A stretch of 64,000 bases of DNA, taken from Bryoerythrophyllum caledonicum. Taxonomy: Eukaryota > Streptophyta > Bryopsida > Pottiales > Pottiaceae. Below, piece after piece: positions 7,431-60,060 of this stretch (within the stretch, counting starts at the first letter, position 1; each line of letters begins with the position of its first letter). The stretch is from the NCBI GenBank assembly GCA_963971425.1, contig OZ020524.1:3443773-3507772 (forward strand), read 5' to 3'. The notes under the pieces are model-generated. The model was given only the letters and a program-made list of their open reading frames with translations. It had not been told where the DNA came from and did not search any database. Position numbers and translations under genes: made by a program.

Positions 7431-8379
7431 TATCCCCTAAGGTACCGTGACAGTTTTGCACCAAAAACACTTCAAAATTGTTGGATTCTAGTGCAATGAA
7501 CATAGAAGGAAACCAAAACTTTGATTTCTAGTTTTGACCGTAGGATCTCAATTAAGACTTATTAAAAAATATGTTTACAAAATTTCAAAAACTTTGACTG
7601 CACAGATTGAAATATTATAGTGTTTGAAGTGAAGCAAATAGTTCATTTTCTTCACTGCGTTTAGTGGATTAGCAGACTTTGACTTTATCTGGTGTCAAAA
7701 TTTTGTATTACACAAGGTCTAAATCCATTACCTTCTTGTTAAGCATGATGTTAGTTCCTTAGACACCTATTTTTTGAGGTAGAGGACAGGTGTAGCGTAT
7801 TCAAAACAACTGTGCAAGTAGTGGAGGTTCAAAATTTGCCAATTCAAACTTTAATTTTGGTAGACTTAATGTGTTTTGGATTACTAATCCAAATGGTCAA
7901 TAAAAAGGTTTACACCACATATTAATGTGGAAAAAACAAAATGTAACAAATATAAAGATATGTAGGTTTTATGTGGAAATGAATAAGTTCTTTTGGTAGC
8001 TTGTCCGACAATGACTGACAATGTGTGAGAATGTTTGACTTGGGTTGGTATGCTATTTTTCAATAAAGACAAGACTTGTTTTTTTACAATATCAAGGGAA
8101 GAAATATTACTTGCGAGTATTGAAAATCTCACTTTCAATAGAGTGTCCTAGCAAAAGTTTTTGGAGGTGCCCAAGCTGCCCACTCTCCCCATTGGAAATT
8201 CAAAACCCTATAATTTTATCATCATATGTCCAATTTAAGAAAAAATTGTCTTCCCACTAAGATATCGGTAATGCCTTTCTATAGTAAAATTTCAAAGAAG
8301 AATGTTGGAAATTCACACCATAGGAACCTAACCAAACTTTCAAAAAGCCCATTTTTGACACTTGATCCTTTAGGGGATA
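7431..8379. mobile_element. TTAA-type repeat, family R copy (949 bp)
   Basis: The left end TATCCCCTAAGGTACC and right end GATCCTTTAGGGGATA are inverted partners. Length and interior (for example 'gacagttttgcaccaaaaacacttcaaaattg', 'caccaatttttttgaggtagag'-like text) match the copies at 21,631, 23,054 and 44,326. The TTAA edge is degenerate here (TAT/ATA). Short ORFs inside recur between copies only because the DNA is repeated. Confidence 0.6.
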
Positions 8380-8544
8380 TACTTACTTGCCTTAGAAGTT
8401 AAATATTCATACTTCAACATTTTTACTCTGTCAAAATATACTAATTTTTTGTCTCTTTATATACTTTTCAATACACGTCTAACAATACGAGAATTTGAAA
8501 CTTCTGTATGGAGTAATTTCCAGACCCATTTGCATCTATAGAAG

Positions 8545-9090
8545 TTTAGTAGCGGTTCGCGCTTGTTTTGCAACGCATTTGAACAACCATTTTAATGCGT
8601 TTTCTATATTACAGAATATTATGAAAAAGATTTATTTCAAAATTTTATAGAAAATTGGAAGAGTAGAGAAGGAGCGGGTTACAAACATTAAGTGTTAGTT
8701 AATAGTGTTCGTGATGATTTTTAACACTTTGCCATAGTCATTCGCGGACGATTTTCCTTCCGGAGACTAATTTTCGTCCATCGACTGTTTTTTCAACCAC
8801 GGACTACTTTTCCATCCGCAGACTATTTTCATCCGCAATGGATGAAACTATAATTCGGCCATATTATATTAATAGTGAGTTAATATCTCCTAACATAATC
8901 ATTATTCTTGAATTCTGACTTTGGATATCGGCTCTCTAAGGGGGTTTTCATTCAGTAGAAAAAATAAATTGCGTAGAAAGTTTTTCAAAAACCACATTTT
9001 TGTGAGTGTTTATAAATCATTTTAAGGAAGTTCAATACCTAACTCTGTAGGTAGATTGCTAGGGCATATTTACTCGGTTTTAAATATCCA
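8545..9090 (+). repeat. Dispersed TTCATCC repeat, copy 2
   Basis: Matches 60-700 block by block: 'gcgcttgttttgcaa', several CATCCGCA / CATCCATCG motifs, 'tggatgaaact', 'gactttggat', 'ggtagatt'. The stretch 8,380-8,545 and 9,090-9,270 holds nothing I can name. Confidence 0.55.
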
Positions 9091-9269
9091 TAACAATTTG
9101 AAGCAATGAAGTATATGCAATGATTAATACAAACATGCATACATTAAAATGCAGAGGCATCCAAATATGAATAGCAAAAATGCTAATAGGAAGATTTTGT
9201 TGTATTCATTGATATTGTATAATGTATTTGGTCTACTATTTCGTGTACTCTATGGAGTAATTTCCACAC

Positions 9270-10678: not shown

Positions 10679-11039
10679 TTTTGGATGAGAAATACTCAAG
10701 GAATTTTAGAGGTACAGGTTGTAAAAAGAAGTTTGTTGAACATGTAATGATATGAAATACTCTTGAACTTATATGAGGTGATTGAAAAGTTGGAATGTAT
10801 AAAAATTTCTCATTCCACACATCACTTATACTAAAATTATCAATAAAATTCATTTGGAAATACGTAGCATGCATTGTACATTCATCATCCACATTGACAT
10901 GGCCGCAACGTAGAAATATTGAATAAACATCCATTTGAAGATCTTAAAAAATGACCTTCTAAATTTACAAAATAGTCAATATTGTTCTCGCACGAAGACA
11001 TTATCCACATGGATTACATTACAACGTGCCCATGTATGA
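10679..11039. other. AT-rich spacer, no feature seen
   Basis: Between the LINE remnant and the 3' end of the minus-strand decayed gene. It may include that gene's 3' flank; no ORF or repeat was identified. Confidence 0.4.
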
Positions 11040-12059: not shown

Positions 12060-12099
12060 CTTCCCTAAATAGAACAAACAATTAAATGAATAAAAGGAA

Positions 12100-12470: not shown

Positions 12471-12879
12471 CGTGCACTCCAAATCTAGAGATCCAGTCAC
12501 GTGCATTAATGGTCGGAAGAATGTCGGAAAGATTTTATGCGCATCCACGAGGATATTCCATTGTGTGCGTGGAAGCACAGAGTTATTTAGTTTCTTAATA
12601 ATGGTTCCACTTAAAATATCCTACATAACAAGCAATAGATGCTTGTATCATTTTTTATGTTTGACTCACCAGGAGGAAATTGGAATGGCCCACAGGCACA
12701 ATGTTCCAAGGGCCAAGGGTACATTGCCCATGGCATAGGCATAACTTTGTATGGGAGGATTTTTGGCCTCTACATGACTAAATCTCCTTCGCAGCGAGTT
12801 TTCAATTTTGGGCAGGTTTCTAGAATTCGAATAAGAAGAAACAACTTTCAAAAAATTTATGTTAGTTTGTCCCTGGGAA
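12471..12879. other. No feature seen
   Basis: Moderately AT-rich DNA without convincing ORFs or repeats that I could match within the window. Confidence 0.4.
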
Positions 12880-14275
12880 GAGCTATTTGAATGTATTAAT
12901 TTTTATTTTTTTTGGATTTGTGGTTTCAAATTTAGTACCACCCATAGTGAAAAATGGGGAGCGCGGGCATCTAAAAACCTTTTATAGAATTTTCTATTGA
13001 CATTGAGGTTTTTCATACTCATGAAGAATATTTCTTTCTTTAAAGATTTCTCCAAAAAATGATTGTCTTTATTGAAAATTCGCATTTTATTCCTAGTAAA
13101 ATATTTTCACCATTTTTTGTGCAATGTGCAACAAAACTTCTTCTTTTCCTCAACAAAACTTACAAATTCTTATATTTTTCACTTCTTGTTTTGTTCTCCT
13201 AAAAGATGTGATGTACACCCTTTTATTGACCAATTGGAATATGGATGAGCATTCTAAAAGATATTTAGTTCACAAGTGATTGTAACGTGAATTGGCCATT
13301 CTTGAACCTCCACTTGTTGCTGAATTTTATTGAAGATGCTACACCCCTCTTTTACCTCTAGAAATTGGTATATTGGGTATGAACATATGCTTAACTTTTA
13401 AGACAACGGTAAAAGATTTGGAACTTCTGTACTTTAAACATTACATAGAAAGTGAAGTCAAAGTCTACGAACCCGGGACGAAAACTCAACCATTGTTTTC
13501 ACGTTAGACACTATAATCTATTGATTTGTGCAGTAGATTGCAACTAATACAGTATGGCATGTTCATATATTTGGTTCCCATCCACCGCACGGATAGATAA
13601 ATCATGGTGTTTACAATCCAAACAACAACTCATTCTCTTCCATGCGTTGATCCATATTCATCAGACAGTGAGACTGTGACAACACTTCGTATCATATTTA
13701 TGTAATATGCAAGGTCTAAATATTTTACCCTTGTTTGAAACTCTAAAGGAACATGGCCAATTTAGCTAAAAAATTAGTCCAAAACTGTCACATTGAAAAA
13801 GAGGCATAGCAATCACATTTTTCAAGTGATCTTTAGATTTTAAACTGTAAGATCCTAAAGTAGACTTTTATATGAACACACCATACTCTTATGGTTGCAA
13901 TCCACCGCATGATTTGATAGATTATAGTGTGTAAAGTAAAAAAAAATGTTCATTTTCTTCCATCATTGATTGGTACCCTAGACTTTGACTTCGCTTTCTA
14001 TAAACTTTTTACAATCCAAAAGTTCGTAATTTTCTATTGTTCTGTGAAACATGATGTCAATTCCATATACACCAATTTGTAGAGGTAAAAAACGGGAGTA
14101 GCATATTCAAATAAATCTGTGCAAGGAGTGGAGGTTCAAACAAGGCCAATTCACATTTTAATTTTTTGTGCACCAAATATCTTTTAGAATGTTTATCCAA
14201 ACAATAAATGAGAAGGTTTATAACACATCTTGTACAAGAGAAAACAAGATGTGACAAATTTAATAAGGTGTACAT
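12880..14275. mobile_element. Two inverted family R copies forming a palindrome
   Basis: The left copy (from about 12,880, 'ggatttgtggtttcaaatttagtaccaccc') runs in the same direction as the 21.6-kb copy. The right copy starts near 13,738 with AACTCTAAAGGAACATGGCC, matching the complement of the 22,564 end, and runs in the opposite sense. As a result 'gatgtgatgtacacccttttattgacca' near 13,205 pairs with 'aataaatgagaaggtttataacacatc' near 14,200. Confidence 0.5.
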
Positions 14276-14860: not shown

Positions 14861-16059
14861 CTCTCGACTCCTTTAACCCCTAATGGTCTAAGCGATTTTA
14901 GATTAATCTCTACTTTGTTGATTAATAACTACGAAGAAGAACTTATTGAAATTATAACTATAGGATTTCTTTCTAAACTCATATGAGATAATGTGGTCAA
15001 AATTTTGTGAATTCTGATTGTACGGATTGAAAGCTAATTGCTTGTTAAAGTATACATTAATGTACCCTGGAGACACTTGGGCTAATAGGGGTTAAATTGG
15101 CAAATAGAAATGAAAGCCTTTGTGCCTTTTGTTAAAATAAAAGTCAACTTAGAAACGATGAGTAGTTTCTATATCCGCATACGGTAAAACAAACTTATGT
15201 TTCTGTATCCGCTCAAAGTAAAGTGAGCTTGTAGTTTACTTTACCTTCTACGGTGGGAGGAAAGTATAATGTATATAAGGCAACTCTCCCACGAAGTTGA
15301 AAAAGCTTCTCCATAGGACCAAAATCTAGTTGATGGAAGAATGTAAAATGCTCCTATGTGATGATAAAACATTACTTTCATCCAAGTTTTTGTGAAGGTG
15401 TTGTCAATGAGTGCATGTACCACATGCACTGTACATACCCTTCATAAAGTGTGTATCTTTTTCTCTAAACACGAAAATGTTTGTGACATGGAACTCAACG
15501 TAGTGTATTTTAGAAACTTCCTTTAGGTCTAAATCTGAATTTGAGTCATTAAAATGATATTTTTTGAAATCGAGTCCAACTAATGAAATGAATTTTATCA
15601 AATCTAGTTTCCAATTCAATTTGAAAATTTGAAAAATACATAAAATTGAGTAAGTTATTGCAATTTGAACTTTGGGCCTATTACCATGGATGACCAATTT
15701 TCTAATTTAGCTGAACATAGAAGTTTCATCTACACCACAAGTTTCAGCACAATAATGTACACCTTCAGTGAAATGATCATATTTTTTACGCAAAATTTGT
15801 ACATGATATGAAAATTCTTCAAATTTTCTTCAGAAAATCACAATAATTTGAATTTTCACCAAAAAATTCTTGTGTTGTTCAGTTACATGAACAAAAACAT
15901 GTGGTGTCATCTCTGAAAATGAAATAAAAATATTTCCGCTTATATTTGATGAAGAATTAGAGCACATATTAGAATGAAAATCGGGATTGATGCCACGGTC
16001 ATAGCTCCGTGCTTTAAGGGTTAAGCCGACTCTGTTCGCCACTGCAGCACCACTGGCAA
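14861..16059. other. AT-rich DNA, one possible TTAA-type tip
   Basis: 'gctaataggggttaa' at 15,081-15,095 resembles the right tip of the TTAA elements, and 'gctttaagggttaa' at 16,012-16,025 is a second weak match. No partner ends were found. No gene is seen. Confidence 0.3.
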
Positions 16060-16960: not shown

Positions 16961-17002
16961 GCAGTCATTCTACACCGCTCTTTATTTGTCACTGGTCCAC
17001 CC

Positions 17003-17233
17003 TTAACCCTTAAAAGTCGTGTAGAATACAAAACACGTAGTAATTTTACACTTTAGAATACACAAAATGTAATAAAGTTTAGCAAGACTTATACCTTTGG
17101 ATTGAAGATTCTTCAACTTACATCTTTCATTTGGAGGTCATTTCAATATCTGAATTTCATCATATTCAAATGCAACATTATACATGTAAAGTATTGTGGC
17201 CATCACTAGCACCTTCTCATGTTAAAGGGTTAA
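17003..17233. mobile_element. Possible 231-bp TTAA-type mini-element
   Basis: Starts TTAACCCTTAAAAG and ends GTTAAAGGGTTAA, i.e. TTAA-bounded with inverted CCCTT tips. It is much shorter than the other families; homology inside was not established. From 17,234 to 18,485 I see no other feature beyond short AT-rich ORFs. Confidence 0.3.
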
Positions 17234-20528: not shown

Positions 20529-23057
20529 TGAACCCTTTCGTGCCCACAGACCCAAAATGGGACTATGGAGGTGTTAACTCTTTACCACCTAGAGATGTTA
20601 CTGGAAAACCAAGATTTCTGCTGATTTTTTTCTTTGAACCGGATTTGATGGAAATACAATGACTAATAATAATATCTAACCTTACAAAATTAAACTTAAC
20701 CCATGACCTAAACTTTGGGGAAAATTTTCACAACATCCAACGGTTGATGGAATAGACTATAGTGTTTAAAGTTACCGTATATTGGTTGTGAAAATTGTGG
20801 AATTTGAAAGGTGTACTACTTTAACCATCAATAGATTCTTGCATGATTCTTTTAACTTCGAATTAGAGCGGTTCACATGTGCACTAGGTTGATAGCTTGG
20901 CATTGACATATCATATGTGAAGAAAATATTTTTACACAGTTATTGGTGATTTTTTTGCTTTTCTCTACTTGATTGTAACAAAAATATTCCAACCTTATAC
21001 GAATCAAAACGGAAGTTTTGTATGTGAAGAGAGAGATCAACAATCACAAAACAATGAAGAATGTCTTAAAGACAAAGTTCAATCAAAATTTGAGACGAAA
21101 ATCAATGTGCATGTGTGTGAGGTAAAACATAATATGTGGCATAGTATTCACTGTATTCATTGTATTTTAGTGTATTTGGTGTATTTTGTGTTGTATTATG
21201 AGCTTTTCCAAGAGTTTTGTAAAACCAAATCATGATCTGATTGTTGGAAAGTGTTCGTGTAATGAGCGCACAAATCAAAACCTCATATTTTGAAGCCTAG
21301 TTCCTCATGGATTTCATGCAAATTGAGTTTTAGCACCTCCGGAGTCCCATTTTGGACTTCCTGGGCGCTAAAGGGTTAAAACTCAAGTTGCATGAAATCC
21401 ATGAGGAATTAAGTGGTGAAACTTGAAGTTCAGATTTGCACACACATTACATGAACACTTTGCAAAAATTAGATTATGATTTGGAGTTGTAAAACTCATG
21501 GAAAAGCTAGGAATACATCACAAAATACATTAAAAACACTAAAATACACTTAATACCATGTCGCATGCTATGTTATGTTTCATATACAAGCAAAATGATT
21601 TTGGTCTTATATTTTGATTGAAATTTGTCTTTAACCCCTAAAGGACCAAACGTCCCACCGGGGTCAAATTGGATTTTGGGCATGTACCTACAATTTGAAA
21701 AAAAATCCTTTTTTATTGAAAATTTTATACAAGATAGTTTCTGATAAGAGCTTCGTGAAGATATTTTTATTTTATTTTTTGGATTTGTGGTTTGAAAGTT
21801 AGTACCACTTAAAGCCAAAAGCGGGGACTCTGGGCACCTCCAAAAATTTTGACAAAAGTTTCTATTGACATTGAGATTTTTCACACATATAAAGAATATT
21901 TCCTTCTTGGGAAATTTCCAAAAAAAATTCTTGTCTTTGGTGTAAAAAGGCATTTTATTCCAAGTCAAACATTTTCACACATTGTCGGGTAATGGGGGAA
22001 AAAAAATTAATCTTTTCTACATAAAACCTAGAGATCTTTATATTTTTCACTTTTTCTTTTTTCAACAACAATATGTGGTGAAAACCTTCTCATTGACGGT
22101 TTGAATTATCATTCGAATACATACGTAGTTCACAAAAAAATAAAAGGTAAATGGCAATTTTTGAACCTCCACTCCTTGCACACTTGTTTTGAATATGCTA
22201 CACTCCTTTTTTACCTCTAAAAATTGGTGTGTAGGAAAATAACATCATGCTTAAGACAATGGTAAGAGATTTAGACCTTTTACAATGCAAAAATTTGATT
22301 CAAAGTGAAGTCAAAGTCTGCTGATCTACTCAACGTAGGGAAGAAAATGAACCATTGTTTTTTCTTTGAACACTAAAATCTATCAATTTGTGTGGTGGAT
22401 TGCAACCAAAATTTTAGATGCATGTTTATATAGAAGTCTATTTTAAGATCTTATGGTTGGAAATCCAAAATTCACTTTAAAATGTGATTTTTATGTCTCT
22501 TTTTGGCAGTGGCAGTTTTGGACTGGTTTTAGAGCGAAAGTGGTCATGGTCCTTTAGAGGTTAAGAGATTCATCATTGTTTGTGATTGTTGATCTCTCTC
22601 ATTGCATACAAAACTTGAGTATTAATTTGTATAAGTTTGGAATATTTTGTACACAATCAAGTAGACAAAAGTTTTAAAATTCATCAATAAGCATGTATTT
22701 ATGATTTCTTCACATATGATATATCAATGCAAAGCTATCAACCTAGTGCACATTTAAACCTCTTATATTCAAAGTACAAAAATTCTTGCAAGAATTTGTT
22801 GATGGATAAAGTAGTACACCCTCCAAAGTCCACAATTTTCATTACCAGTATAAGGTAACTTTAAACACTATTATCTTTTCCATCAATCATTGGATGATGT
22901 GCAAATTTTCAACAAAGTTGAGGTCATGGTTTGAGTTCAATTTTGTAAGGGTAGATACCAAAATTAGGCATCATGTTTCCATCGGATTTTGTTCAAAGAA
23001 AAAATTTAGCACATATCTTGTTTTTTGTAAAACATGACCTAGGCACTAAAGGGTCAA
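20529..23057. mobile_element. Tail-to-tail TTAA-type pair (foldback), interrupted
   Basis: Copy 1 (20,529-21,379) has ends GAACCCTTTCGTGCCCA and TGGGCGCTAAAGGGTTAA, with 'aaaatgggact' inside both. The following DNA is an inverted copy of the same interior, ending GGCACTAAAGGGTCAA at 23,057. Long blocks match in inverted orientation, for example 'gtgcactaggttgatagctt' against 'aagctatcaacctagtgcac'. The right arm is split by the separate element at 21,631-22,564. The ends are cousins of the other TTAA families (CCCTTT in place of CCCCTA). Confidence 0.7.
21631..22564. mobile_element. TTAA-type repeat, family R, 934 bp, nested
   Basis: Starts TTAACCCCTAAAGGACC and ends GGTCCTTTAGAGGTTAA, inverted with one mismatch, TTAA at both edges. 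It interrupts the right arm of the foldback pair, whose homology to the left arm stops at 21,630 and resumes at 22,565. No transposase is encoded; the longest ORF (131 codons, minus) is Lys/Phe-rich and changes between copies. Confidence 0.8.
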
Positions 23058-23169
23058 CTTCAAAATTCCTTTGACAATTTTACCTACAAAAAACTTCAAA
23101 ATTGTTGATTTTGGAGCAATGAGTACCGAAAGAAAACTTTTCTTTCTAGCTTCAACACCAAGATTTCAA

Positions 23170-24041
23170 TAAACCCCTAAAGGACAATTTGTTCCTACAG
23201 AAGACAAATTGGTTGGGGCAAGTTCCTAAAAATCCTTTAATGAAGGTAACTTCTTGAATTTTTTTATTGAGAATATATATATGGGTTATCTTTGGGTGGA
23301 ATTTTTTTTAAAAATTGAACTTATATGAAAAAAGTTATGGTGCTTCAAACACAAAAACTCGACTCTTTTGGCAGCTAGGCAAGGTACTATAGCAATAAAT
23401 AGTGTTGTTGTAGAGTTGAAAATTGTACTTTATTGAAGCGGGTAGTAGTGATGGAAAGTTCTTGGCAACCTTCATTATTTTCACTAAAAGATGCATAGAA
23501 ATTAAGGATTTTACTACATTTTATTTTTTTAATTGTTAGATTAGCTCATAATAATTCTATTCGCCATTGGAATTTTAGATCTAACAATCAATTCTTTATT
23601 TAAAAAACAAAATTACTTTCCTACATAAAGAGCCACTTTCTATACCCCTAATTGTTGAAGGTTCATTTTTCTTATAGTAAACACCTCCATTACTTGTGAT
23701 TTTTGGCATGCAATGACTTAACACAAGGTAGAACATAGATCGATTGAGTTTATGTAATGTGTAATGGAAAAACATGCCATTATCTTGAGTCAAAGTATGA
23801 TGAACTTGTCCGGGCACAGTAGAAGAAAACAATTTTGCACTCTTCAAATGCATTTATCTTTTGATCCATATGGTCAAAGTTTACGAAAACTGTAGGGTGT
23901 TTTCTTGTAGTAGTTAGCTTGAAGATCCAACGGTTGATAAAGCTAAAAAGACGTTTGAATAAATCGAATAATATCTCATGTCAAAGTTGCAGTTTTTGCT
24001 TGGTTTTGGTGGAGCACAAGGCTTGGTCCTTTAGGGATTAA
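23170..24041. mobile_element. TTAA-type family B, copy B1 (872 bp)
   Basis: Starts TAAACCCCTAAAGGACAA and ends GGTCCTTTAGGGATTAA. Its interior is an inverted copy of B2, for example 'gggttatctttg' and 'gtgcttcaaacacaaaaa' against 'caaagataaccc' and 'tttttatgtttgaagcac'. Confidence 0.7.
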
Positions 24042-24047: not shown

Positions 24048-24928
24048 TTAACTTCTAGGACCAAGATTATGTTTTCACCAAAACCACTTCCAAACTATCT
24101 ATCTTAGATGAGACCTTGCAACACTAATCTAAACAATTTATTACTCTTTTCAACCTTAGGATCTTCAAGTTCACTATTACAAGGTGACACTTAAAACATT
24201 TCGTAAACTGTGACGGCACAGATTGTAAGATACACACATTTGAAGAGTTTAATATAACTTTTTTCTTTTATGTGGGAACATGATCAGTGTACTTTGACTC
24301 AAGATAAGGCCGTATTTTTACGCTAAGCATTGCATAAAGTTTACATATCCATTTTCTACCTTGTACTAGGTCATTGAATGCCAAAAATCACATGTAATGG
24401 AGGTGTTTCAGATAAGAAAAATGGACTTGCAATGACTAGGGTTACAGAAAGTTGCCCTTTACTCTAGAGGCGCGGTTTTATTTTTTAAATAGAGGAGCAA
24501 TTGTTGGATCAAAAATTCAAACAATGTATAGAATTATTATGACTTATTCTGACAATAGGAAAATTTCAAAAGTAGTAAAATCCTTAATTTCTATGCGTTT
24601 TTAAGTGAAATCAATGAAGTTCGCCAAGAACTTTCCTTCACTACTATCTGCCTCAAAAAAGGGCAATAATCAATTCTATTATATTGTTATTCATCTTTTT
24701 AGTACCTCATCCAAAAGTCCCAGCTACCCCAAAGTCAAGCTTTTTATGTTTGAAGCACCAAATTTTTTTCCTATAAGTCCAAAAAACAAGAAAACATTCT
24801 TTGCAAAGATAACCCATGTTCATGTTTTGACTAAATGAATTCAAAAAGTACTCTTCAAAATTGAATTTTTAGAAACCCGCCCAAAAAAAATTTGTATCCC
24901 GTAGATACAAATTGTCTTTAGGAACTAA
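24048..24928. mobile_element. TTAA-type family B, copy B2 (881 bp, inverted)
   Basis: Starts TTAACTTCTAGGACCAAG and ends TTGTCTTTAGGAACTAA, decayed forms of the family tips. It lies 6 bp from B1 in opposite orientation. A shorter third copy of the family is at 32,598-33,225. Confidence 0.7.
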
Positions 24929-25753
24929 GTAACATACTCATAAAGTTGCATAAAGTTTGACCGCACATGTTGAAAAGATTATAGTGTTTGAAGTAGGGGA
25001 GTGGTCAATTTCTTCCTTGCCTTGAGTGTGTACGCATACTTTGACTTTACTTAGTGTCAAATTTTTGCACTACACAATAACAAAATTCATTAGCATCATG
25101 TTCAGCATGATATTAGTTTCTTGTACACCAATTTTTAGAGGCAGAGAAAGGATGTCGCATATTAAAGACATTTTTGCAAGAAGTGGAGGCTCAAAATTTG
25201 CCAATCCATAATTTATTGTTTTATAATCTTAATATGCTTTAGAATTGATAATTCAAACGGTCATTAAAAAGGTATTCACCATATATTGTTGTGGGAAAAA
25301 TATAAAATACAAAGATCTCTAAGTTTTATGTGAAAAAATAAGAAGTTTTTTAGTACCTTGCCCAACAATGTGTGGCAATGTGGGAAAATATTTGACTTGA
25401 ATTTAGATGCTATTCAAGTCAAATATTCTCCACTAAAGACAACAAGTCTTTTTGACATAATGAAAGCAAAATAATATTACTTGCTAGAATTGAAAATCTT
25501 GCATTTGATAGAGTGTCCTAACAAAAGTTTTTTGAGATGCCCAACGTGCCCGCACTCAAGAAGTTTTCCTTTAAAATTAGATAATTTTTTTTCTATAGGT
25601 CCAATGAGAATAAAAATGATATTTCCATGTTACTCTTGTCTTCTAACATCATTGCACAAAAAGTCAAGAATTGTAAACATAAATTGCAACCACAAGAACG
25701 TGTTGCATGTTTGCCAACAACCCACCTTGAAACTTTTGTCATTTAGAGGTTAA

Positions 25754-32597: not shown

Positions 32598-33225
32598 TTC
32601 CTTAAAGGACAAGACTGTGTTTCACCAAAACCACCCAAAAATTGTCTCTTGAAGATGAGACATTGCAAAACTAATTGAAACAATTTTTTACTATTTTCAA
32701 CTATAGGATCTTCTTGTTCACTACCACAAGAAGGCCCACAATAAATTTTGTAAACTTTGACCGCACAAATTTTAAGATACATGCACTTGAAGAGCATAGT
32801 ATATACTTTTCCTTTTCTACGTGAATAAGGTCAACGTACTTTGACTGAAGATAGTAGCGTAGTTCCTTTCTATTCATTGCAAAACCTAAAACCCTTGATG
32901 CATTTTGAAGTAGAAACAATAAGGGATTTCTAAGACCTTGCCTTCAATGCTACCCTGTTAAAAAAATGCACTATTCATCCTTACAATATTACTACTTAGC
33001 TCTATAATACCTAGTCTAGTTGCCCAAACTTGAGCTTTTGATGTTTACATCACCATAACCTTTTCTCTGTAAGTCCAAAATAAGAAAAAATATCCCCATC
33101 AAACTAACGTGTATTCTTTTTCACTCATTGAAATTTTCAAAAATTGATTTTCAAATTTAAATAGTTAGGAATCTATTGAAACTTGGTTTCTATTCCAAAG
33201 GTACAAATTGTCCTTTAGAATTTAA
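32598..33225. mobile_element. TTAA-type family B, internally deleted copy (about 630 bp)
   Basis: Left 'ttccttaaaggacaag...gtttcaccaaaaccac' and right 'ggtacaaattgtcctttagaatttaa' match the two ends of B2. The middle, including 'gcacttgaagagcatagtatata', also matches B2, but about 250 bp are missing. Confidence 0.6.
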
Positions 33226-33760
33226 GAATGAACAAGTAGTAGTATGATAAATCAAAAAACCAATGTGTGATTGACTCTACAAATAACTAAAACCTGTGAG
33301 AAAATAAGAGGCAAGACTACTCATATGTAGCATCATTCATATTTAAACCCCACCCCCCTTTAAAAGTCAGGCCACAAAAAGGACTTGGAGAGTGAGCGTA
33401 GTCACCAAGGTAAGCCACCCTAAAATCGACAAGTTTAGAAATGTGCATATATGGAGAGAGGAGATAATTATACTTTTATTTTTCAATGATAGCCAATAGA
33501 ATTACAATTCCAACCCAAGTGATTTCATATTTTTTCAATGAAAACTGAATTAGTTATGAATTTTCGAACTGAGCAGCCATGTTTAGTGGGTAGCCAGCAG
33601 TAGGTACCGCCCAGAACCAACGACCAAAAGTAAGGGTCTTGACTATTAGCAAACCTCCATTTGGAGCTGAGTTGGTGGTAATGGGATGGAAGAGGGTTGG
33701 ATATACCCCAATTTCATAGGCATTGGCTATGGGTTTTTGTTGGTTATGAGGAGGCTTACC
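33226..33760. other. No gene seen
   Basis: AT-rich DNA turning mixed near 33,560. No supported feature. Confidence 0.4.
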
Positions 33761-44325: not shown

Positions 44326-45275
44326 TTAACCCCTAAATTTCCAAGAGTCTCGTTGGGGACTCTAGAACGGTCGGGCAGGTTCCTATGGTGTCATTTTATA
44401 ACAATCTTCTTTGATGTTTTTCATGTAGATGGACATTGCTAAAAGCTTTGTGTGAGTCCAATTTTTTCCTAAATTGGACATTTAATGAAAAAGTTATAGG
44501 GTTTTGAAGTTCATATGGGGAAAGCGCGCATGTCGGGCAACTCCAAAAACTTTTACTATGACATTCTATCGAATGAGAGATTTTCTATACCGACTAACAA
44601 TATTTTTTCCTTTCAAATTGTCAAGAAAAATCTCTTGTCTTTAGTGAAAAAAGCATATAAATCCAAGTCAAACATTTTCACACATTATCGCACATTGTTG
44701 TGCAAGGTACCAAAAAAACTTCTTCTTTTTCACTTAAAACTTTGAGATCATCATATTTTTTACTTTTTATTTTCTCCGCAGCATTATGTGGTGTAAGCCT
44801 TCTTATTGACCATTTGGATTCTCATTCTAAAACATACTAAGTTCACAAAAAAATATGACGCAAATTGACAATTTTTGAACCTCCACTCCTTGCACAATTT
44901 TTTTGAATATGCTACACCCTTTTTCTACCTCTCAAAATTAGATTTCAAGGAACTCATTTCATGCTTAACATGATGGAAATGAATTTAGACCTTGTATAGT
45001 CAAAAAATTTGACACCAAGTGAAGTCAAAGTCTGTTGATCTACTAAAAGCAGGGAAGAAAATGGACCCTTTTCTCTACTTTAAACACTATAGTATTACAA
45101 TTTGTGTGGTCAAACTTTATGAGTTTTTAATGTAAGTTACTAAATAAGTCTTAATTTAGATCCTATGGTTAAAACTAGAAGTAAGAGTTTTTTGTTTTGT
45201 CCTTACTCATCGCACTAAAACAAGCAATTTTGAAGTGTTTTTGGTGTGAAATTGTCAAAGAAATTTAGGGGTTAA
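44326..45275. mobile_element. TTAA-type repeat, family R, 950 bp, inside the LINE
   Basis: The ends TTAACCCCTAAATTTC and GAAATTTAGGGGTTAA are exact 16-bp inverted repeats with TTAA at both edges. LINE coding sequence lies on both sides. Interior blocks ('ctccactccttgcac', 'gaatatgctacaccc', 'gtcaaagtctgttgatctact') define family R. No transposase gene. Confidence 0.85.
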
Positions 45276-48830: not shown

Positions 48831-49508
48831 TCTATTTATAGACAACTTGTATTCAAACATGTTGAATCGGTATTGCATCTTATCGTGTGGCTAATAGTCA
48901 CTGTACCAATGTTTTTCTCATTGCTATTTTTTCTCTATTTGTTTTTTCCATTATTTTTTTTTCTTCTGTTATGTCGTGCAGAATGTGCTATGATGGCAAC
49001 TTGCGGCAGTTCCGTCAAGTAGAGACAGGATATCATAGCAAGGATTTGAAGAAATCAGGTATCTACCACTCTAAACCCGGTAGTTTAGAATCATCCTAAA
49101 TCGTTGATACATGAGTACAAACATCTTGTCGTATTGCTTTGACAAATTAAATATCTTACTCCATATCCGCTTCTTCAGCACTTGGTTTCCATTCTAAGTT
49201 TTTACATTTTGATTCCGTGTGTATGAGGCCCCTAAAAATATTATCTTGTAGAGCAAATAAATAATAAAATTCATTATTACAATTCAAGGATAAGAGTGAA
49301 GAAAGAGGAAAAAAAATGTCAATAGTTAATGCATCTATAGCTATAGGATACTTTTTTAATTTATAAAAAAAATCAACATTTTCTATCAAAATTTACAGTT
49401 ATACCATTATATTCCTTCAAAATCCAATTTTTTTAAAATTACGTTCTTTTACTGTTTTCAGGCTTTTTTCTGCTCACTACTCACCCCTCACGGCTCAAAT
49501 GATAGCTT

Positions 49509-52500
49509 CGTTGGGGAAGGTGGGTGTGGCTAATTAATGACGTTTGATGGGTGGTTAATTTCAGGTTGGATGATATTGTTATCAATGATGTACGAGCTAT
49601 TAAGTGTGTAAGAGGGAGTGTGAGTGGGGCACGGGGTGGAGCATGTAAAAAGGCAAGCAGAGTGACAAAATAGTTGTTTATCAATGTTGAGTGCACTTTT
49701 TAGAAGCTTGGGTGGAGTACCATAAAACTTTATATAGTTATTTTCATCCATAAGGTGTGTTTTGTTTGGAATTGTGATTTGTATATGATCGGTGATGTTT
49801 ACGGAGAATAGTTTTTGTAAGAGTTTAGAAAATAGTTGGCGGTCGAGTCTAGGGGAAGTTATGAATTTCATTTTCCCAAATTTGTTCTAGTGGTGCGGGA
49901 CGAAATAGAAAATTTTCTAGCGTGCTCTATCAGAATGTTTGGCCTTTTGTTTTGAATAGGAAAAGTATGCGGGTATTAGGAGACCGCATGCAGTTGAATT
50001 TTTTAAGTCTTTGGAGTTTTTTGCACCCCCATACTAGAAGAGAAAATGGCAAATAAACCCGCTGAAGATTTTACCAAGTTGCCCCTTGTCGTTGAGGGCG
50101 CTTTGGAGTTGTTCCCCAATACAACGGTGATAGGCATTTTAGAGAGAAGGTGCCTAGTCCAAATAGATCTTGGGGGAGTTGTGTTATGACATTGGGTGTA
50201 TGATTAGGAAGTTCACATACTTTCTTTTGTATAGCTATGATTTTTTTATTGAGTTTTTTTTATGGCGGGCATTGAGTAGGGGACTGCATAGAAACTATAT
50301 GAAATTCCCGGTCGTATTACAGTGTCGATCATTTTATTTTTTGTTGCATTGTGGACAAGTATAGCGTCAAATTTGTACATTGTTTAATGAATTTTGAAGC
50401 AGTAGTTTGGATTTGTATTTTCCATTTTATTAATGGAACAAGGTTTATTCCAAGATAAATATAAGGTTTATTTTGATGTAGAATCGATATTGGTTGGTTG
50501 AGGTAGTTGATGTTGGTGGCTTTGATTAGGGCTTTGAAGGCGGTCGGGTTTATTTTGGATTTGTTGGGGCATCCAGTTACAGCACATTTTTTAACCCTAA
50601 GATTCATACCAGTCCATAGACAAAATTTATCTATTTTGTCTACATGGGTTTGAAGTGATTTAAGGCATTTAGAGACGGCGGTAAGGTCGTTTGCGTATGT
50701 AGCCAAATTGATGATAATTTTTTATGTGCCAAAGGTGTAGCCATTGTTACCTCTTTGAAGCCATTGCACTAAGGGTTCTAGAAAAATAATGAAGAGATAA
50801 GAGCTTAATGTATCACCTCGGATGGTGCCACGTTGTATGGGGATGGGTCTGGTTTTCCCAAAGTATTCTCCGACACATGTGGTGGTAGATTGAGAGTAAA
50901 TATTATCGACCAATGTGACCACGTCTATTGGAAAGCCTTTGTCACTCGTGATGGCGAGGAGTCAGGGGTGGTCAATGGATCCGAATGCATTTTTAAAGTC
51001 TATGTAGAGTATGTAAATATTGCGGTTGGTGAATTTTGCGTCCTCTAGAGCATAAATAAGGGTTTGGAGTTGTCGGGTGGTACTACGCTTGGCTCTAAAC
51101 CCTTCTTGGATGTCATGAAGTATTTGATGTTTTTCTCCATATGCCGATAATATAGATGTCAATGTACTAGTGTATAATTTACAGACTGCTTTAGCTAGAG
51201 CTATGGGTCAATGGTTAGGTAATACGGATGGTTTCTTTTTTGTATAGTAGAATTGTGAGACTTGTTTTCCAAGACGGAGGCATCATTTTTTGTTTGTAGC
51301 AATGAGAGAAGAATCGTGATAGTAAGTAGTGGAATCTTACGGGCATTTTTTTAGAATCGAGTTGGGTGTGTGGTACAGACCAAGGACTTTGTTATATCCC
51401 AAGATTTTTAGGCACATATCATATGTATTTCTATTGTAGTATATATGAAGTGGGATGGTTGGTTCTCCTCTTTTGTCAATAGTAAATCATATTAAATACT
51501 TACCATTTTGTTGTTTTGATCCAATACACAATCGAGGGGTAGGTTAACATTGTCTTTAAAAACCTGTCTATTGATCTTTTTGGGGCTTGTTTCACATAGT
51601 TGGCTAAATTTGGAAATGGCTTTATAATGCAATCTCTTGTATATTTTGTAGTTATTTTTTGGGCTAGTTTACTGCCATTTTTTTGCATTGATTGCAATTT
51701 CATTTAGCCATTCATCGTGTGGGGAATCGGGCGGTGGCTTTTGAGGAATTTGAATGTGGCGCAAGATTTGCATTTCATAAATGATAGGGTGAGTCTGCCA
51801 GTTAGGGTTGGTTTTAGCAATATAGATTTGTTTTTTGTATGGTGTGGTACGTAGTAAGATGTTGTTTCCAGGTTTTAGCTAGTTTTTGGAGGTGATATCC
51901 TCCTTGTTGTGCGGTCCTAGGTGTGAGTTGTGGTATGGGGGGTGCTTTGCAAGGTTTTTCTAACATATTAGAGATTGCCTTGATTAAACTATCAAGGGTG
52001 GCGCAAGCTTCTTGCCACTATATTTGTGTGAGGTATTCATGGTTGGAAAGGATAGTTGTACTATTGTCAACTGTTTTTTAGAGTTTTCTTTTATAAATGT
52101 TGTATTAAAGATTTGCATGTTTTCTTTGGGGATAGGGTTGAGTATTTTGATTTCATTCAAATAGGTGGGTGTGATGGATTTACGAGGAGGGTGTTGTGTG
52201 GTATGTTAAGTTGGATTGGAAAGTGGTCGGAGTTTAGGTTAGTTATAGTGTTAGTGTGTGATGTGTATTGGGTGAGGTTGGATGATTTGATGTAGAATCC
52301 ATCAATTAGGCTAGTGTGTATAGTTGAGTCTGCCTTGTCTAGATTATTGAATGTTGATTGGGATATATGTTAGTTTTATATTATCTGTGTAATTTCTCCA
52401 TTGGTGGTCTATTTCAAGTGGGGAGGGTAAAAACAAGGTTGTTGTGTCTACCAATGAGGGCAATGTCTCTGTTAAAGTCTCCAGAAAGTAATATTGTATG

Positions 52501-54499
52501 GTTAGTGTGTGAGTTTATTTGATTGGTGATAGAGTTTTGGATATCCAGAATGAGCCTAGAGTCATTTAGATGTGAAGGCATATACAGGTGTAGAATGAGC
52601 CATGGTTGGAGTGGTTGATTTGCAATTCAATAATTTGTTGGTATGGTGATATTTTTATTGGGGTGGGGATTTTAGTGATATTTCTGGGGGAAGCATAAGA
52701 TTGATGTATGAGCATGAGAAGACCACCTCTCACCGGTATATATGGCGTTGGTTGTTGAAAGCGCCTTGCGAGTGCATGGGTATTGTTGAATATGAGTTTG
52801 TAATTGGAAAATATTTTTTGTGTATACTTTGTGGATTTTGTAGCGGTTAGTTTGGTTTCTTGTATGGCAATTGTAGCCGGGGAGGTATGTTAGTGCTAGA
52901 GACTAGGTTATGAATACATGGGAAGGCGGTGTTTAACGTTGAAACATTCCATGTTGTAATGTAGGTGTTTCTATTTTCTATATCTAAGTTACGAGGAGGA
53001 GGAGGAATGTAGGGAGGTGGTGGTGGGGGATGTGTATATGCATCAATTGGTTCAAAGCATGGAAGAGCCTCGTAGGTAAGATTGTTCAAGAAGAAAGGGA
53101 ATTTTGATTTTATTGTTTTGAGGGTGGAAGGTGGAAGGTGGAAGTTGAATGAAGTTATATAAGTTGTTGTGGAGGGAGTTTTTGTGTTGTAGGATGTGTT
53201 GATTTTCTTCTAGGAATTTGGTGTATAGGTGTTTGGTTTTGATGCGTCTTTTGGGGGGATTTTGTAATGTAGAGAGAGTGTTTAGTAGTAGGTTTGTCCA
53301 GTGTATTGGATTTGTATTAGTATAATGTCGGCCAAGGATGTTAATACCTTTGTCTATGGACGAGCTTAGGGTGGTAATTAAGGCATAGAGAATGTGTGAG
53401 GGTGGGTGATTGTTTTTCTGTTGTATGTATTCAGAGATGTTAGGGTAGAGTGAAGTGTATCTTTGATGGAGTACATGGGTGTTTTCTAGTAGCAGTACAA
53501 AGGAAGAGATTAAGTTTAGGTATTCCGGATAGAGTTTTATTGTGTTGGGATTGAAATATGTGTTAGCCGACTTTTTGTGTGTTTTTTGGATGATTATGGA
53601 AGACGTTAGGCATTGGTCCAAGGTTAGCTTCGATATCACCGCACAATAAGAGTAGAAGTTTGAAGTGAGTGACGGTTTCGGTTGGTAGTTGTATAAGTGT
53701 AGGACGTGTGTTTTTAGAGATGGATTTTTTATGTTTTTTTTTATTATTATTGTTGTTATTTTTGTGATTATTTTGTTGGTGAAGTTGTGGTAGGATTATA
53801 GTTGCTAGGGCTTTATGTGTTATGTTTGTGATATGAGTTGGAAAGGGGGTTTGAGTTATGATTGTGAGTAGAGGTGGGGTGGGAGGGAAGTTTTTTGGGG
53901 GGTAGTAATGGGTTGTAGAGTGGTAGGTTAAATAATTTTGGGACAGATGGATGGTAGTTTAGGGTATGGCAATTGGGTGGTATATTTGTGTTTACAAACC
54001 TATTTGTATTTATAAGGGCGGGGTATAAGTAATTTGATTGTTGTATGCGATTGTCGTTGGTTGTATTATGTTTTCTGTGGGTATATTTGTTTTTGTGTTA
54101 GTAGCATTTTGGTGTATGTTTTTTTACGTACGTAGGGGTGATAATTGTTATGGAGATTAGTGCTCTGGGGGATAAGGGGTTTATGTTCAGGGTAGTATAT
54201 GTGTGTATGATAATGTGGATGTATTTGTGTGTAGCTTTATTGTCAAGTATGGGGGTATGTGTATTTCTAGAGAATGAAGTTTTGTTTGAAGTGACGTTTT
54301 TGTTTGTAGTGTTAGGTTGTGGTGTTTTGAGGCAGGATGAATTTGAAAATGTATGTGAGGTTGTGGATGTTTTGCGGAAGTTTTTGTAGGTGATTGGTAC
54401 TGACCGTTCCTCCTTCATCTTGTTGCTCATGTCTCCTGTATCGTGTTTCACCAAGAATGTTGCGCATAGGTTGTCACTCTCACTATTTGTGAATATCAT
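49509..54499 (-). pseudogene. LINE segment 1: ORF start, 2A-like motif, endonuclease, reverse transcriptase
   Basis: Read on the minus strand: a Ser/Thr/Asn-rich start (54,499-54,098), the 2A-like site (53,614-53,661), a 195-codon open stretch (53,639-53,052), then APE-type endonuclease with ITTWNVSTLN near 52,960 and NSDHFPI near 52,225. Reverse transcriptase follows: PPSWKTSLTILLYKK, EGFRAKRSTTRQLQ, YILYIDFKNAFGSIDH (first catalytic Asp), GTIRGDTLSSYLF, and YANDLTAVS at 50,695 where YxDD is expected (second-to-last Asp is Asn). The family encodes endonuclease, RT and RNase H, and inserts by target-primed reverse transcription. Dozens of stops and frameshifts make it inactive. The copy at 9,270 is a shorter relative. 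Confidence 0.75.
53611..53670 (-). other. 2A-like ribosome-skipping motif (degenerate)
   Basis: The frame KLLLLLCGDIEANLGPM is open upstream for over 40 codons. Apart from Leu (CTT) where Pro (CCT) belongs in the final N-P-G-P, it matches the 2A-type consensus D-x-E-x-N-P-G-P following a Leu-rich stretch, with a residue after it where the new chain would begin. Such motifs are known in APE-type non-LTR retrotransposons. The change is a single C-to-T; with Leu here skipping should fail. Confidence 0.6.
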
Positions 54500-56349
54500 T
54501 TTTCCACTCTGACTTCTTCTTGCTTCACGTTTTCTTCTTCTATTGGCTTCAAGAACTTACAGTCTCTTAACAACTTTTTAATTTCCTCTCGTGAGTATGC
54601 TAAGTACTCTGCTAAGTACTACACCCAATCTCAAAAGTTGCTAAAGCTGCAGACAACTTCTACTCTCTGCTTCTCAAACTTTGTAATTTTACTATTTTGA
54701 TTAAGCTTAGTGACTATTCTGGATATATGCACAGATTATTTGGAAGAAAATTCTTTCCATAGAGTCCAACCTCTAGAAATTAATATTTTTTAATTCTTTC
54801 AAACTTCAATACTCTTGGCAGGTTTCTGTGAAGGATGTTAACCAACAGAATAAGTTTTTAACTCTACAAGAGAAATTTTTTGCTATCAGCTGTGTTAGGA
54901 CATCACCTGCACCTACTTCTTGTGTATTTTACTTTTGATCAACATATAGCTGACTTGACAAGCTTTGAATAGTGAACTTTGGGCATGACTCTTGCATTAC
55001 TTTCGGCTGCATGGAGATCTCGTATTTTGATTTGCTCTTGAGAGAAACTATGTGTATGATCATGTTTGCTTTAGATCATAACTGACTCTGAAGGACCCAT
55101 TATGCATGACTCATGCGTTTAGTTATTGAATTATTCCCTTCTATACATACAAGTTTCAGCAACCTCAATCCTGCTCTTCACTATGTGCATATTGTTTTAG
55201 CCATTAGACTGACCTATTTGTGAGTAACACAATGCACACACCTGTCGAGTATCTTTCAACATGCCGACGAGTAATACTATCTTTCTTTTGAGGTGTCTTT
55301 GATGAACAATCCTTGGTTCTATCTATGTAACAACAATCTCTTTTTCCTAACTCATAAATTTGACTAAAAATAGTTGATTCTTGCAGCCATCAGAAATAAT
55401 GAAACAAAATAGACTACATTCTCTTACCTCAAAGACGTCTAGCGATCATGCAAACAGATGCCTTTTGTAAGCACATGCGCTCTCTACCACTCCTCAGATG
55501 ACATTGTTATGCAGGCCAAGTTTTTGTATTCTTGATGCAACACTGTGCACTTCTCGCGTCTTCTCGTTGCTTCAGTCCTTGTGCGCCAACTAAGGTTTTC
55601 GATCTGGACTCTCCAACTTCTCTCCTCACCCCCAAACCCTTCGCAAGTGAGTTTCTTCAACTTCCTTCTTGAAACTCACTCTGCTTGGCGAACCGTTGGT
55701 TCTCACAAAATCATCATTTCAACCACGTGAATGCCATGCATTCATGGTTCAACCGGTAGCCTACTGGCACCATATTCCATATATGTATATTACTATATGT
55801 ATATGGTATGTATAGTATACAATCCGTTCACATACTATATTTCTATTAACTACTCTTTATCCGATTCAACAACCTTTCCCAATTGTTCCAAGTTCCTTGG
55901 CTTTTGATTTTTTTGTTTTTTTTTTGTTTTTTTTTTAATTTAATGATTTACTTATTTAATATTTTTATTTTTATTTTTATTTTCTGAATTATTTTCCACT
56001 TTCATTCATTTAAATAATTTTCTCTTTTACATGACTAGGTTTTTATTTCCGAATTTATATTTTAATTTTCCTTTTCCGAATAAATTGCTTAAAAGCTTTT
56101 ATGTAATCATAAATTTGAGACATGAATTGGGGTAGAAAATGGCTTTTATCACAATAATTATCACTTTGAATGTAAGCAATCTTGAGGATTTGAGTATAAT
56201 TTTTGTAAGGGTTTAACGAATAAATTACAAGTTTTATTAGTTAAACAAGACAGTTTTTGGCAAGGTTATGAATTAGTGGTAAATCGAACTCGTAACCATT
56301 TAAACAATTTTTAGATATTTCCCACATTCATCCGGATAGTTTAGGGTCA
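54500..56349. other. Spacer between LINE and gypsy; possibly LTR-containing
   Basis: T-rich DNA with a (TATATG)-like tract at 55,775-55,815 and T-runs at 55,905-55,980. A purine/pyrimidine-rich tract before 56,150 could belong to the gypsy 3' end. I could not match it to the DNA beyond 63,150, so no LTR is claimed. ORFs are short. Confidence 0.3.
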
Positions 56350-57844
56350 TTGCGGACTAGATCACAAAATAACTTAAAGATTTTGGCTTCCTTTTTAAAA
56401 GGTGACTTGCCCTTAAGTTACATATTTTTTCAAACTATATCCATTCTAGCCTGTTGCATGGACATTTCCCGCAAAATCCTATAATTCTACGGAACCATTG
56501 GGATAAGACTTAAGAATGCGATATGGACCAAACCACCTTCTTAAATTTACCCGGAAACTTCTGAAACCTACTATCATAAAGTAAGACTAAATCATTTTCT
56601 TTTAAGACTTTAGGTTGTAGCTTGCTATCGTGATAGGTTTTCCGTTGTTTTTGGATGACTTCCATATTCATAAAAGCTTGAGCTCTTATTTCATCAAGCC
56701 TTTCTAAAGTGTCAAACCGTTCTCTTAAAGATGCAATGTTTCCAAGTCACTCGGTTATTGCTACTCTTAAAGAGTGTACTTCTACTTCAATAGGTAACAT
56801 TGCTTCTAATCCATAAACTAATTGGAAAGGAGTTGCTTTAGTTGTGGTTTTTATGGTACATCTATATGCCTATAAAGCATTATTTAACTCATAGTCCCAG
56901 TTGGATGCCTTACCTTTGAGTGTTTTAGTGATGATCTTACAAAGTATGCCATTAGATTTTTCGGTTTGACCATTTGCTCTAAGATGATAGAGTGATGATT
57001 TTCTATGTTTGATAAAATAGTTTTTAAAGATTTTTTCTAGAATACCATTAATGAAATGAGTCCCTCTATCACTTACTATTTCTTTAGGTCATCCAAATAT
57101 AATAATAATATTCTCATAGATGAATTTAGCTACGATATTTGCATTGTCACTTTTAGTTGCAATTGCCTCAACCCACTTAGTAACATATTTTGTGGTTACT
57201 AAAATATAACATTTTTGTCCTTTTCAACTAGGAGGTTTAATGGGACCTACAAAATCTATTCCCCACTTCTCAAAGGGAATCTGTGCTAAGATTGGATTTA
57301 AGGGCATTGCTTTAGTGGTGGTTGGTTTACCAACAAGTTGACAAGGATTGCATTTTTGTACATAACTAGTGGCATCCACAAAAAGTGTAGGCCACCAATA
57401 GCCAGCCTTTAATACTTTTTGTGCAGTTGCCCATCCTGCAAAATGTCCCCCACATGCATCACTATGACATCCTTTTAAGATCATTTCAACTTCACTAGGA
57501 TTTATGCAACGTCTTAATACATCATCTTTACCCCTTCTATAAAGAACTCCACTTATCATGGTGTATGGTAAAAATTGATGAACTAACTTAGTCTTCATGT
57601 CTTTACTTGCATACTCTAGTGGAAATGTTCCTTTGGGTAAATAATAAATTATATCCGTATATTCCTTAGAATTAATATCAACCACATCAATGTTGTCTTG
57701 AACGGAAAAGAGGTGTGCATCCGAAAAACTATCATCAATGGAATCTGGATTTATAGTTTCACTGAGTCGTGATAAAAAATCTGCATTTTGATGTATTTTT
57801 CCAAGTCTTACACTAATGGTAAAATCAAACTCTTGTAATAACAA
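56350..57844 (-). pseudogene. gypsy integrase
   Basis: A zinc-binding HHCC region (CHSDACGGHF ... CNPCQLVGKP) is followed by YWWPTLF, WGIDFVGPI (first catalytic Asp), VSDRGTHFI (second Asp) and ANGQTEKSN (region of the Glu). Then YRCTIKTTTKATPFQLVYG, LEAMLPIEVEV and a carboxy domain with GPYRIL. It is open from 57,844 to 57,224 and then broken by stops. Confidence 0.75.
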
Positions 57845-60060
57845 AACCCACCTTGCAATCCAACCACTTAGTCGAGGCTTTATTGATCATGTACTTTAAA
57901 GCATCATGATCAATGTGAAAGGTAAATTTATATTCCAACAAGTAATGTCTATACTTTTGAACAGAAAAGATCATGCCAAGACCTTCTCGCTCTGTTACGG
58001 AATAATTCCTCTCTACAACACTCAATTGTCGACTTGCAAATTAAATTGGCCTATCATGTCCTTTAGAATTTTCTGACTTAACCCCTGAAGTCGAAATCGA
58101 CCAGAATGTGGTCGATCTGACTCTGGTCAGGCTCTCAGTTACTAAATTTAGATCGTATGAAGTTATTACCATGGAAGATTGTAGAGTTTTCCCAGACCTT
58201 TAAAATGACACCATTCATGCTTCAAAATTCCTCATACTTTAGGAGATATTCACGGTCAAAGTTTGAAAACACTGTTAGGGCATGCTGAAATCTGCCCAGA
58301 ACTGCGGTATATGCTCAATTATTCTCAAAATCTGCCCAAAATCAATTAGATCGCAGTAACTTCAAAAATTCACCAAAAATTGAGATTTTATTTTTTTTCG
58401 AATTTTGTTTTTCGTACATGTAAAAGAGGTAGTAAAGCATGATCTCACCGTTTGGATTTTCAATCGGATAATTTTTTACATGCCTTTTTAATTGTTGAAA
58501 ATGGGCATTTGTATTTGTATTTCAGCATACCTCCATGTGAAAAATGAAGCATTTCTTTAGGTTTTATAGGTCCTATGAGGGTAAAAATTATATGGACATA
58601 TTCCTTACTCACATAGGAACAAGAATTTGAAGAGCCTCATGTCAAATTTCCTTTCAAAATTGGTTTTTTTGGCCCCCAAAACATTAGTTTTCCATTCTAC
58701 AGCAAGGAAAAAATCTTTTTTTTCAACTTTGAACATTACGATCTCCCAAATGGAGAGGAATTTGAATCTAAGATTCGGTTTGCATGTACATGTACAAGTT
58801 AGGTACTAGATCTTACGGTTACATACTCGAAAATTTGTCAAAAGTTAAAAATTTTCACCTTTCATTGAAAGAGGGCAGTTTTGAGGGTTTTTGGCAGTTT
58901 TGAGGGCTTTCGACTTTAGGGGTTAAAACACTTCCAATCGCTACATTGGAAGCATCAACATACACTTCAAAAGGTTTGGACCAATTTGGTGGAATTATGA
59001 TGGGTGCTTTACTAAGACGGCGTTTTAACTTGTTAAAGGCTTTAGAACAATCGTTTGTCCATATTCTTGGTATTAAAGTTTGTTTTGTTAAAGCATTCAC
59101 AGGTGCGGTTATAAATGGAAATTTATAAATGAACCGTCTATAATAACCCGTTGCACCAAAAAATTCCTTAAGTGCGATTAAATGCTCAGGTATTTCCATT
59201 TGTAGAATAATGGCTATTTTATCAGGGTCAACTGCTATTCCCTTTATGGATACTATATGACCTAATAATCTACCCTACGCAGCGACAAACTCCAATTTAG
59301 CAGCATTTATGGAGATACCATATTCATGACAACTATCAAAACATTGTTTTAAAGCCGCAGGGTGATCCTTCTTTGACCCAAACACACAAAATCATCTAAA
59401 AATATTTCCATAAATTTTCTTAAATATTTTGTAAATGCTTGTGTCATGATCCTTGGGAATGTAGCCGGAGCATTGCACAATCCGAAGGGCAAGACATTAT
59501 ATGCGAAAGTTCCCCAGTTAGTTGTAAAAGTGGTTAGGCGTCTATCTTCTGGGGTTATATGAACTTGATTATACCCCAAAAATCCAGCTAAAAATGAATG
59601 GCACTCATGTCACGCAACACCATCTAAAATGGCATCCAAAAATGGCAAATGAAAGTAATCTTATTTAGTTGCTTTGTTAAGTTGCCGAAAATCTTGGCAA
59701 ATGCAACTTTTACCATTCTTTTTTGGGACAATTACTATAGGTGATATCCACTCACTAAATGGAACTGGATAAACAAAATTACATTTGAGCAACTTATCTA
59801 TCTCTTCCTTAACCATTAAAGAATATTTTGGATTCATCCTATATTGTCTCTATTTAACCGGTTTAGCATCCGCTTCTTAAATGATTTTGTGTTGACAAAC
59901 ATTTGGAGATATGCCTTTAAATTCTTTACAAGTCCATGCAAAGGGATCCTTTTCTTTTTTAAAGAATTCATGCCATTCATCATACTCTTGAGGACTTAAC
60001 CTATCGTACACTTTAATGGGCTTAGGATCTTCTTTAGTGCCTAAGTTCATTTCCATGGTA
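57825..60060 (-). pseudogene. gypsy reverse transcriptase and RNase H, split
   Basis: RT: YRMNPKYSLMVKEEIDKLL, PIVIVPKKNGKSCICQDFRQLN, FLAGFLGYNQVHI (the usual first catalytic Asp after FL is Ala), LPFGLCNAPATFPRIM and FLDDF (the two Asp retained). The RNase H part begins PFEVYVDASNVAIGSVL and is cut at 58,926 by a TTAA element, resuming at 58,077 with SENSKGHDRPI, SVVERNYSVTERE and YKFTFHIDHDALKYM. Stops and small shifts occur in both. Confidence 0.75.
58078..58926. mobile_element. TTAA-type element, family C, 849 bp, inside gypsy RNase H
   Basis: Begins TTAACCCCTGAAGTCGAAA and ends TCGACTTTAGGGGTTAA, inverted with one mismatch in the shared part; TTAA at both edges. Gypsy coding stops at one edge and restarts at the other, so TTAA is the target site. 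The interior is unlike families R and B and has no transposase. Confidence 0.85.

Follow-up and report, generated by a model that had tools for sequence, protein, structure and literature searches.

The short TTAA-bounded repeats in a 64,000-nucleotide stretch of contig OZ020524.1 (hereafter the window) are, we propose, non-coding, non-autonomous elements of the piggyBac superfamily, similar to miniature inverted-repeat transposable elements (MITEs), and are very probably moved by the three-aspartate (DDD) transposase of full-length piggyBac elements elsewhere in the genome. A first-pass annotation of the window had already suggested that several non-autonomous families here depend on a piggyBac-like enzyme, and this suggestion is borne out. 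In the assembly we observed characteristic tips, empty sites with a single TTAA, transposase genes, and tip-bounded elements carrying such genes, two of which (PB-A and PB-B) are each present at two loci. We regard this as a known superfamily newly recorded from an unusual host, and not as a new kind of system.

The window was described initially as holding 0.85-0.95-kb elements with CCCCTAAAG tips and interiors of at least three unrelated groups, R, B and C. Scanning it for TTAACCCCTAAAG with at most 2 mismatches gave 15 matches, against 2.69 expected and a maximum of 7 in 100 shuffles, and comparison with genomic copies likewise separated the R, B and C interiors. Matches to R, B, C and a further family, F, account for 10,782 of the 64,000 bases by self-comparison and genomic copies, a sum that omits uncertain queries starting at 14,873, 15,094 and 17,003. 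Exact TTAACCCCTAAA tips number 5 in these 64 kb, roughly double the mean density of the genome, so elements are likely more abundant here than on average.

The genome-wide tip search proposed in the first-pass annotation showed that the tips are abundant. In the 437-Mb assembly, in which the window lies on C12, TTAACCCCTAAA occurs 16,396 times and its reversed control 95 times. For TTAACCCCTAAAGGACC there were 5,910 copies (reversed control, 0), for the corresponding 13-mer without TTAA 6,996 (8), and for a second tip class, TTAACCCTTWAVYGCC, 2,315 (3). Halving the 16,396 tips and allowing 0.93 kb per element gives a rough load of 8,000 elements, or 7-8 Mb, a figure that counting decayed tips and the second class would raise and allowing for lone ends would lower. 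Twenty C1 regions, picked for convergent exact tips and fetched, contained 22 tip pairs, of which 18 spanned 815-971 bp; these 18 are not all independent, as flanks are common to L012, L013, L015 and L016 and to L027 and L028 (L numbers denote fetched loci). By eye, left and right flanks of the pairs had nothing in common beyond TTAA. The other four pairs were those of L009 (6,483 bp), L010 (1,993 bp) and L011 (1,421 bp), and one spanning two L020 elements. The 6.5-kb L009 pair, considered as an autonomous element, proved to enclose two R copies in inverted orientation, separated by about 4.7 kb, and no frame longer than 131 amino acids, and the L010 pair appears, from repeated translated frames, to be two tandem R-type copies. 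Inverted terminal CCC...GGG tips, as expected of piggyBac, were seen in the window, in the C1 pairs and in PB-A. Separately, F-type tips of one orientation are spaced 840 bases apart at C1:6143215-6162769, a pattern suggestive of F elements arrayed in tandem.

Searching the genome with the DDE_Tnp_1_7 profile (PF13843) identified at least 120 stretches at E<=0.001 (best 6.2e-81; 116 of 305 candidates scored). Since a few genes yield two stretches, the number of copies among the scored candidates is a little below 120; none of 14 control genomes had a match. Intact frames of 793 (L032), 835 (L044) and 465 (L037) amino acids were all assigned to DDE_Tnp_1_7 by Pfam (E values 1.9e-81, 6.5e-77 and 4.6e-77), and a 279-amino-acid frame preceding the L037 transposase had no Pfam match. 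Among solved structures, the L032 protein matched piggyBac (6x67, 1.3e-28) and piggyBat (9c0f, 1.4e-24); a third match, 8tm0 (0.00098), is unrelated and was taken as chance. Transposase stretches from the 20 best loci and from L056, 21 in all, formed five groups at 65% identity and three at 50%. A strict motif pattern picked out the full set of three catalytic motifs in 14 of the 21, and in the alignment all 21 have D in each of the three columns; the catalytic positions of T. ni piggyBac are D268/D346/D447. The earlier proposal of one transposase does not hold, given the many copies, the five groups among these 21 and at least two tip classes.

Two transposase lineages could be placed within elements bearing such tips, the outcome anticipated when the DDE_Tnp_1_7 search was first suggested. 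PB-A extends from L049:633 to L057:787 (6,555 bp), has TTAACCCCTAAA tips, and carries R-like and C-like stretches, the latter a 96% relative of the C element in the window. Its second copy, on C9 (L050:677 to L058:752), shows 100% identity across the initial 355 bases, 99.4% across 5,070 and 99.6% across 757 columns, while a segment of about 0.4 kb that separates the first and second blocks did not align; the flanks of the two copies differ immediately outside TTAA. PB-B (L059:2491 to L052:4523, 4,933 bp) has TTAACCCTTAAACGCCCAGG tips, which are those of the second class. A second copy (L054:1773 to L060:314) shows 97% identity to it and seems to be inserted within an R copy. DDE_Tnp_1_7 genes therefore lie between the same ends as the small elements for both PB-A and PB-B. 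The ends of the other transposase lineages were not found, and none of the patterns used revealed a CCC tip in L055.

In the mechanism we envisage, the DDD transposase of the full-length elements would recognise two unlike ends: an alpha end, predicted to combine the tip with a subterminal CAAAACTGCCA-like motif, and a beta end, in which the tip would be accompanied by a GGGCAGGTTCCTA-like motif. The element would be excised, presumably by cut-and-paste, and reinserted at TTAA, which would leave TTAA on both sides. PB-A-type enzymes likely move R, B and C, to judge from likeness of the ends, and PB-B-type enzymes may move the F elements that form the foldback in the window. For each of 12 pairs of alpha ends compared among R, B, C, the L017 family and PB-A, 0-10 of 1,000 shuffles equalled the similarity seen beyond the 17-bp tip; for both pairs of R and PB-A beta ends, 0 of 1,000 did so. 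These shuffles preserved base composition only, pairs were hand-picked and the results are uncorrected for the number of comparisons.

Several observations weigh against this assignment. The remaining 10 beta-end pairs were reached by 2 to 720 of 1,000 shuffles, so that clear likeness is confined to R and PB-A; C against R (44 of 1,000) and B against R (43 of 1,000) are weak. The beta ends of PB-B and F are at chance level (146 and 139 of 1,000), and F is paired with PB-B by the tip alone. Moreover, the R copy at 7431-8380 is flanked by GTAT and ATAT instead of TTAA, which may mean that the target was non-canonical or that both sites have decayed.

We considered whether another superfamily that targets TTAA could be the mover and the piggyBac genes coincidental. 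Sola3 prefers TTAA. Kolobok, like piggyBac, duplicates TTAA according to PMC9587614, but the Kolobok termini given there are 5'-RR/YY-3', whereas the elements described here start with CCCC and end with GGGG, and on this tip polarity we rejected Kolobok. Furthermore, PB-A combines a piggyBac transposase with the same tips and the same alpha-end sequence as the small elements, and we judge a Kolobok or Sola3 mover to be very unlikely.

Empty sites provided direct evidence on the target duplication. The family C copy at 58,078-58,926 lies near an H2C2 integrase match, in a Gypsy-like retrotransposon. When its flanks were joined through one TTAA they matched at least 40 places at 87-96% identity, from query base 1-3 to 239/240 (40 of 322 candidates scored), and each of the 12 empty sites read had a single TTAA at the junction. 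Joined flanks of the R copy in L015 gave at least 44 matches (40 of 967 candidates scored), of which 41 crossed the junction, reaching only 26-48 bases beyond it, and the other 3 were left flanks of occupied copies; 7 of 7 R empty sites read (L077-L081 and, in L013 and L015, neighbouring copies) had one TTAA. Within the window, F element 1 represents the empty site for the R copy at 21,631-22,564: once that copy is removed, F element 2 aligns with F element 1 through one TTAA (80% over 729 columns). In addition, PB-A is inserted within an R copy, TTAA standing at either end of the insertion. The empty-site comparison called for in the first-pass annotation thus returned a single TTAA for C, for R, and for R as a target of PB-A, and the TTAA duplication expected of piggyBac was found, with the 7,431 copy as the exception.

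TTAA is palindromic, and therefore a single-TTAA empty site is identical for a 4-bp duplication and for a centred 2-bp TA duplication in the style of Tc1/mariner, in which the ends would read ACCCC...GGGGT within a TTAA preference. However, the transposase elements with these ends encode enzymes of piggyBac and not mariner type, and the whole TTAA is kept at 84% of CCCCTAAAGGACC tips (5,910 against 6,996). The identity of the transposases decides for TTAA, and a TA duplication seems very improbable. That the tips are merely part of a longer ordinary repeat with no transposon boundary we consider scarcely credible: the common flanks of L012, L013, L015 and L016 arise because one insertion was copied along with a larger repeat, but the sequences immediately beyond TTAA differ between the PB-A copies, and the uninterrupted flanks restored at empty sites refute a repeat for the copies tested.

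The piggyBac reading leaves room for a further feature of these families, the exchange of ends. Two R subfamilies, represented by 21631-22564 and 44326-45275 with copies from L009, L012, L014, L025 and L082, are 75-85% identical in a core (columns 301-780) and only 49-66% identical at their ends. Within group 1 the ends are 77-95% and the core 90-97% identical, and within group 2 the values are 74-85% and 75-89%. Within a subfamily, then, conservation of the ends almost equals that of the core, which disfavours a slowly evolving, constrained core; the pattern looks like replaced or exchanged ends. No obvious repeat was seen at the core/end boundaries. An RNA function was set aside, as Rfam gave no match in the window at gathering scores, as was a coding core, the longest stop-free runs in 9 copies being 56-114 codons. 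We tentatively suggest, as a possibility we rate below even, that several moss piggyBac lineages have modular ends and interiors, with the ~480-bp R core under two unrelated end sets, one alpha-end design shared by R, B, C and the L017 family over unrelated interiors, and new miniatures arising by end and core swapping. PB-A, near-identical at two loci and with R- and C-related sequence aboard, would then be native and recent enough to be still active.

These elements resemble T. ni piggyBac (6x67) and piggyBat (9c0f) in their DDE_Tnp_1_7 domain, three aspartate motifs, TTAA target and CCC-type tips, and the piggyBac superfamily generally in subterminal regions that differ between the two ends. 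They depart from known piggyBac in their land-plant host, in the long N-terminal extensions of the 793- and 835-amino-acid frames, in the presence of several lineages together, and in that most copies are non-autonomous and about 0.8-0.95 kb long. PiggyBac is one of seven angiosperm MITE superfamilies listed in PMC10004981. Like angiosperm PiggyBac-type MITEs, the small elements are non-autonomous and classed by TTAA and tips; unlike them, they occur with transposase elements that have matching ends in the same genome. A table in the C-fern genome paper gives 1,230 PiggyBac matches, amounting to 0.00% of the assembly (PMC6890710). Our literature search, of limited reach, turned up little on piggyBac in land plants and no report of a moss-native piggyBac, and the initial remark that such a load would be unusual for a land plant fits this limited literature.

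Intact land-plant piggyBac transposases together with thousands of TTAA-bounded ends would offer a source of plant-adapted enzymes. PiggyBac is well known in animals, and the standard genetic tool of that name is derived from insects and bats. Its presence here raises the question of how the superfamily reached mosses, by descent or by transfer, and the families form a natural set for studying the movement of miniatures in trans and the origin of new ones.

Table 1. TTAA-type elements and related fragments in the window (positions are those of the window).
Feature	Position	Strand	Basis
Beta end of R element leaving the window	1..56	-	exact tip (44-56); remainder L082:109-1049, 76-78% to R copies, far tip decayed
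R-related fragments 1223-1390 and 1420-1580	1223..1580		self-comparison and genomic copies
R core-only fragment	7012..7253	-	self-comparison and genomic copies
R, full length, CCCC/GGGG tips, flanks GTAT/ATAT	7431..8380	-	77% to 44,326-45,275; 86% to L009 copies
Two decayed R-related copies, ~12,760-13,569 (+) and 13,570-14,272 (-)	12760..14272		self-comparison and genomic copies
F element 1, right tip TTAACCCTTTAGCGCC, uninterrupted TTAA at 21,066-21,069	20574..21381	+	88% to L060:491-1297
F element 2, inverted, split by R 21,631-22,564	21382..23054	-	R left out, aligns with F element 1 at 80% (729 columns)
R, TTAA both sides	21631..22564	+	87-92% to fetched R copies of its own subfamily; empty site in F element 1
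R alpha-end fragment, ~0.1 kb (earlier "copy at 23,054")	23051..23165		sequence comparison
Family B	23170..24041	+	tips and self-comparison
Second B copy, inverted, decayed tips	24048..24925	-	73% to 23,170-24,041
R-related copy, single recognisable tip 25,741-25,753	24926..25753	-	tip scan and self-comparison
Decayed B copy	32599..33226	-	self-comparison and genomic copies
R, second subfamily, tips TTAACCCCTAAAT	44326..45275	+	tips and self-comparison
Family C inside Gypsy-like retrotransposon, TTAA both sides	58078..58926	+	empty-site matches; 96% relative nested in PB-A

The resulting map (Table 1) retains part of the original list of copies. The entries at 21,631-22,564, 23,170-24,041, 44,326-45,275 and 58,078-58,926 stand, with small tip variants; those that do not stand as listed are 7,431 (for its flanks), 23,054 (a fragment), and 24,048 and 32,598 (both decayed). 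What had been called a foldback at 20,529 (20,529-23,054) is resolved as two inverted ~0.8-kb F elements, the second holding the R copy at 21,631, and the reported end at 56 is a real end (44-56), that of a roughly 0.93-kb R copy extending beyond the window. R-related sequence at 1,223-1,580, 7,012-7,253, 12,760-14,272 and 24,925-25,753 had been missed. Two ~225-bp stretches, 14873-15097 and 17003-17231, have TTAACCC-type tips at both ends and are possible further TTAA families.

The window also contains a gene of several exons for an NLP transcription factor (35081-39895), with GAF_NLP, RWP-RK and PB1 domains. The genome has a LEAFY gene (SAM_LFY, 1.3e-27) whose DNA-binding part reads KPKMRDYVHCYALH; an aspartate at this place is the moss type in published LEAFY work, and the host is probably a moss. 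Elsewhere, 1825-2959 and 5586-6712 form an inverted pair of kinase-like gene fragments (69% identity over 1.1 kb), with a weak Pkinase match in one, and a minisatellite of 13-bp and 32-bp units occupies 18755-18996. Strong GC and AT skew marks 48000-56000, a region surrounding a frame that weakly matches reverse transcriptase (50329-50721), probably a long interspersed nuclear element.

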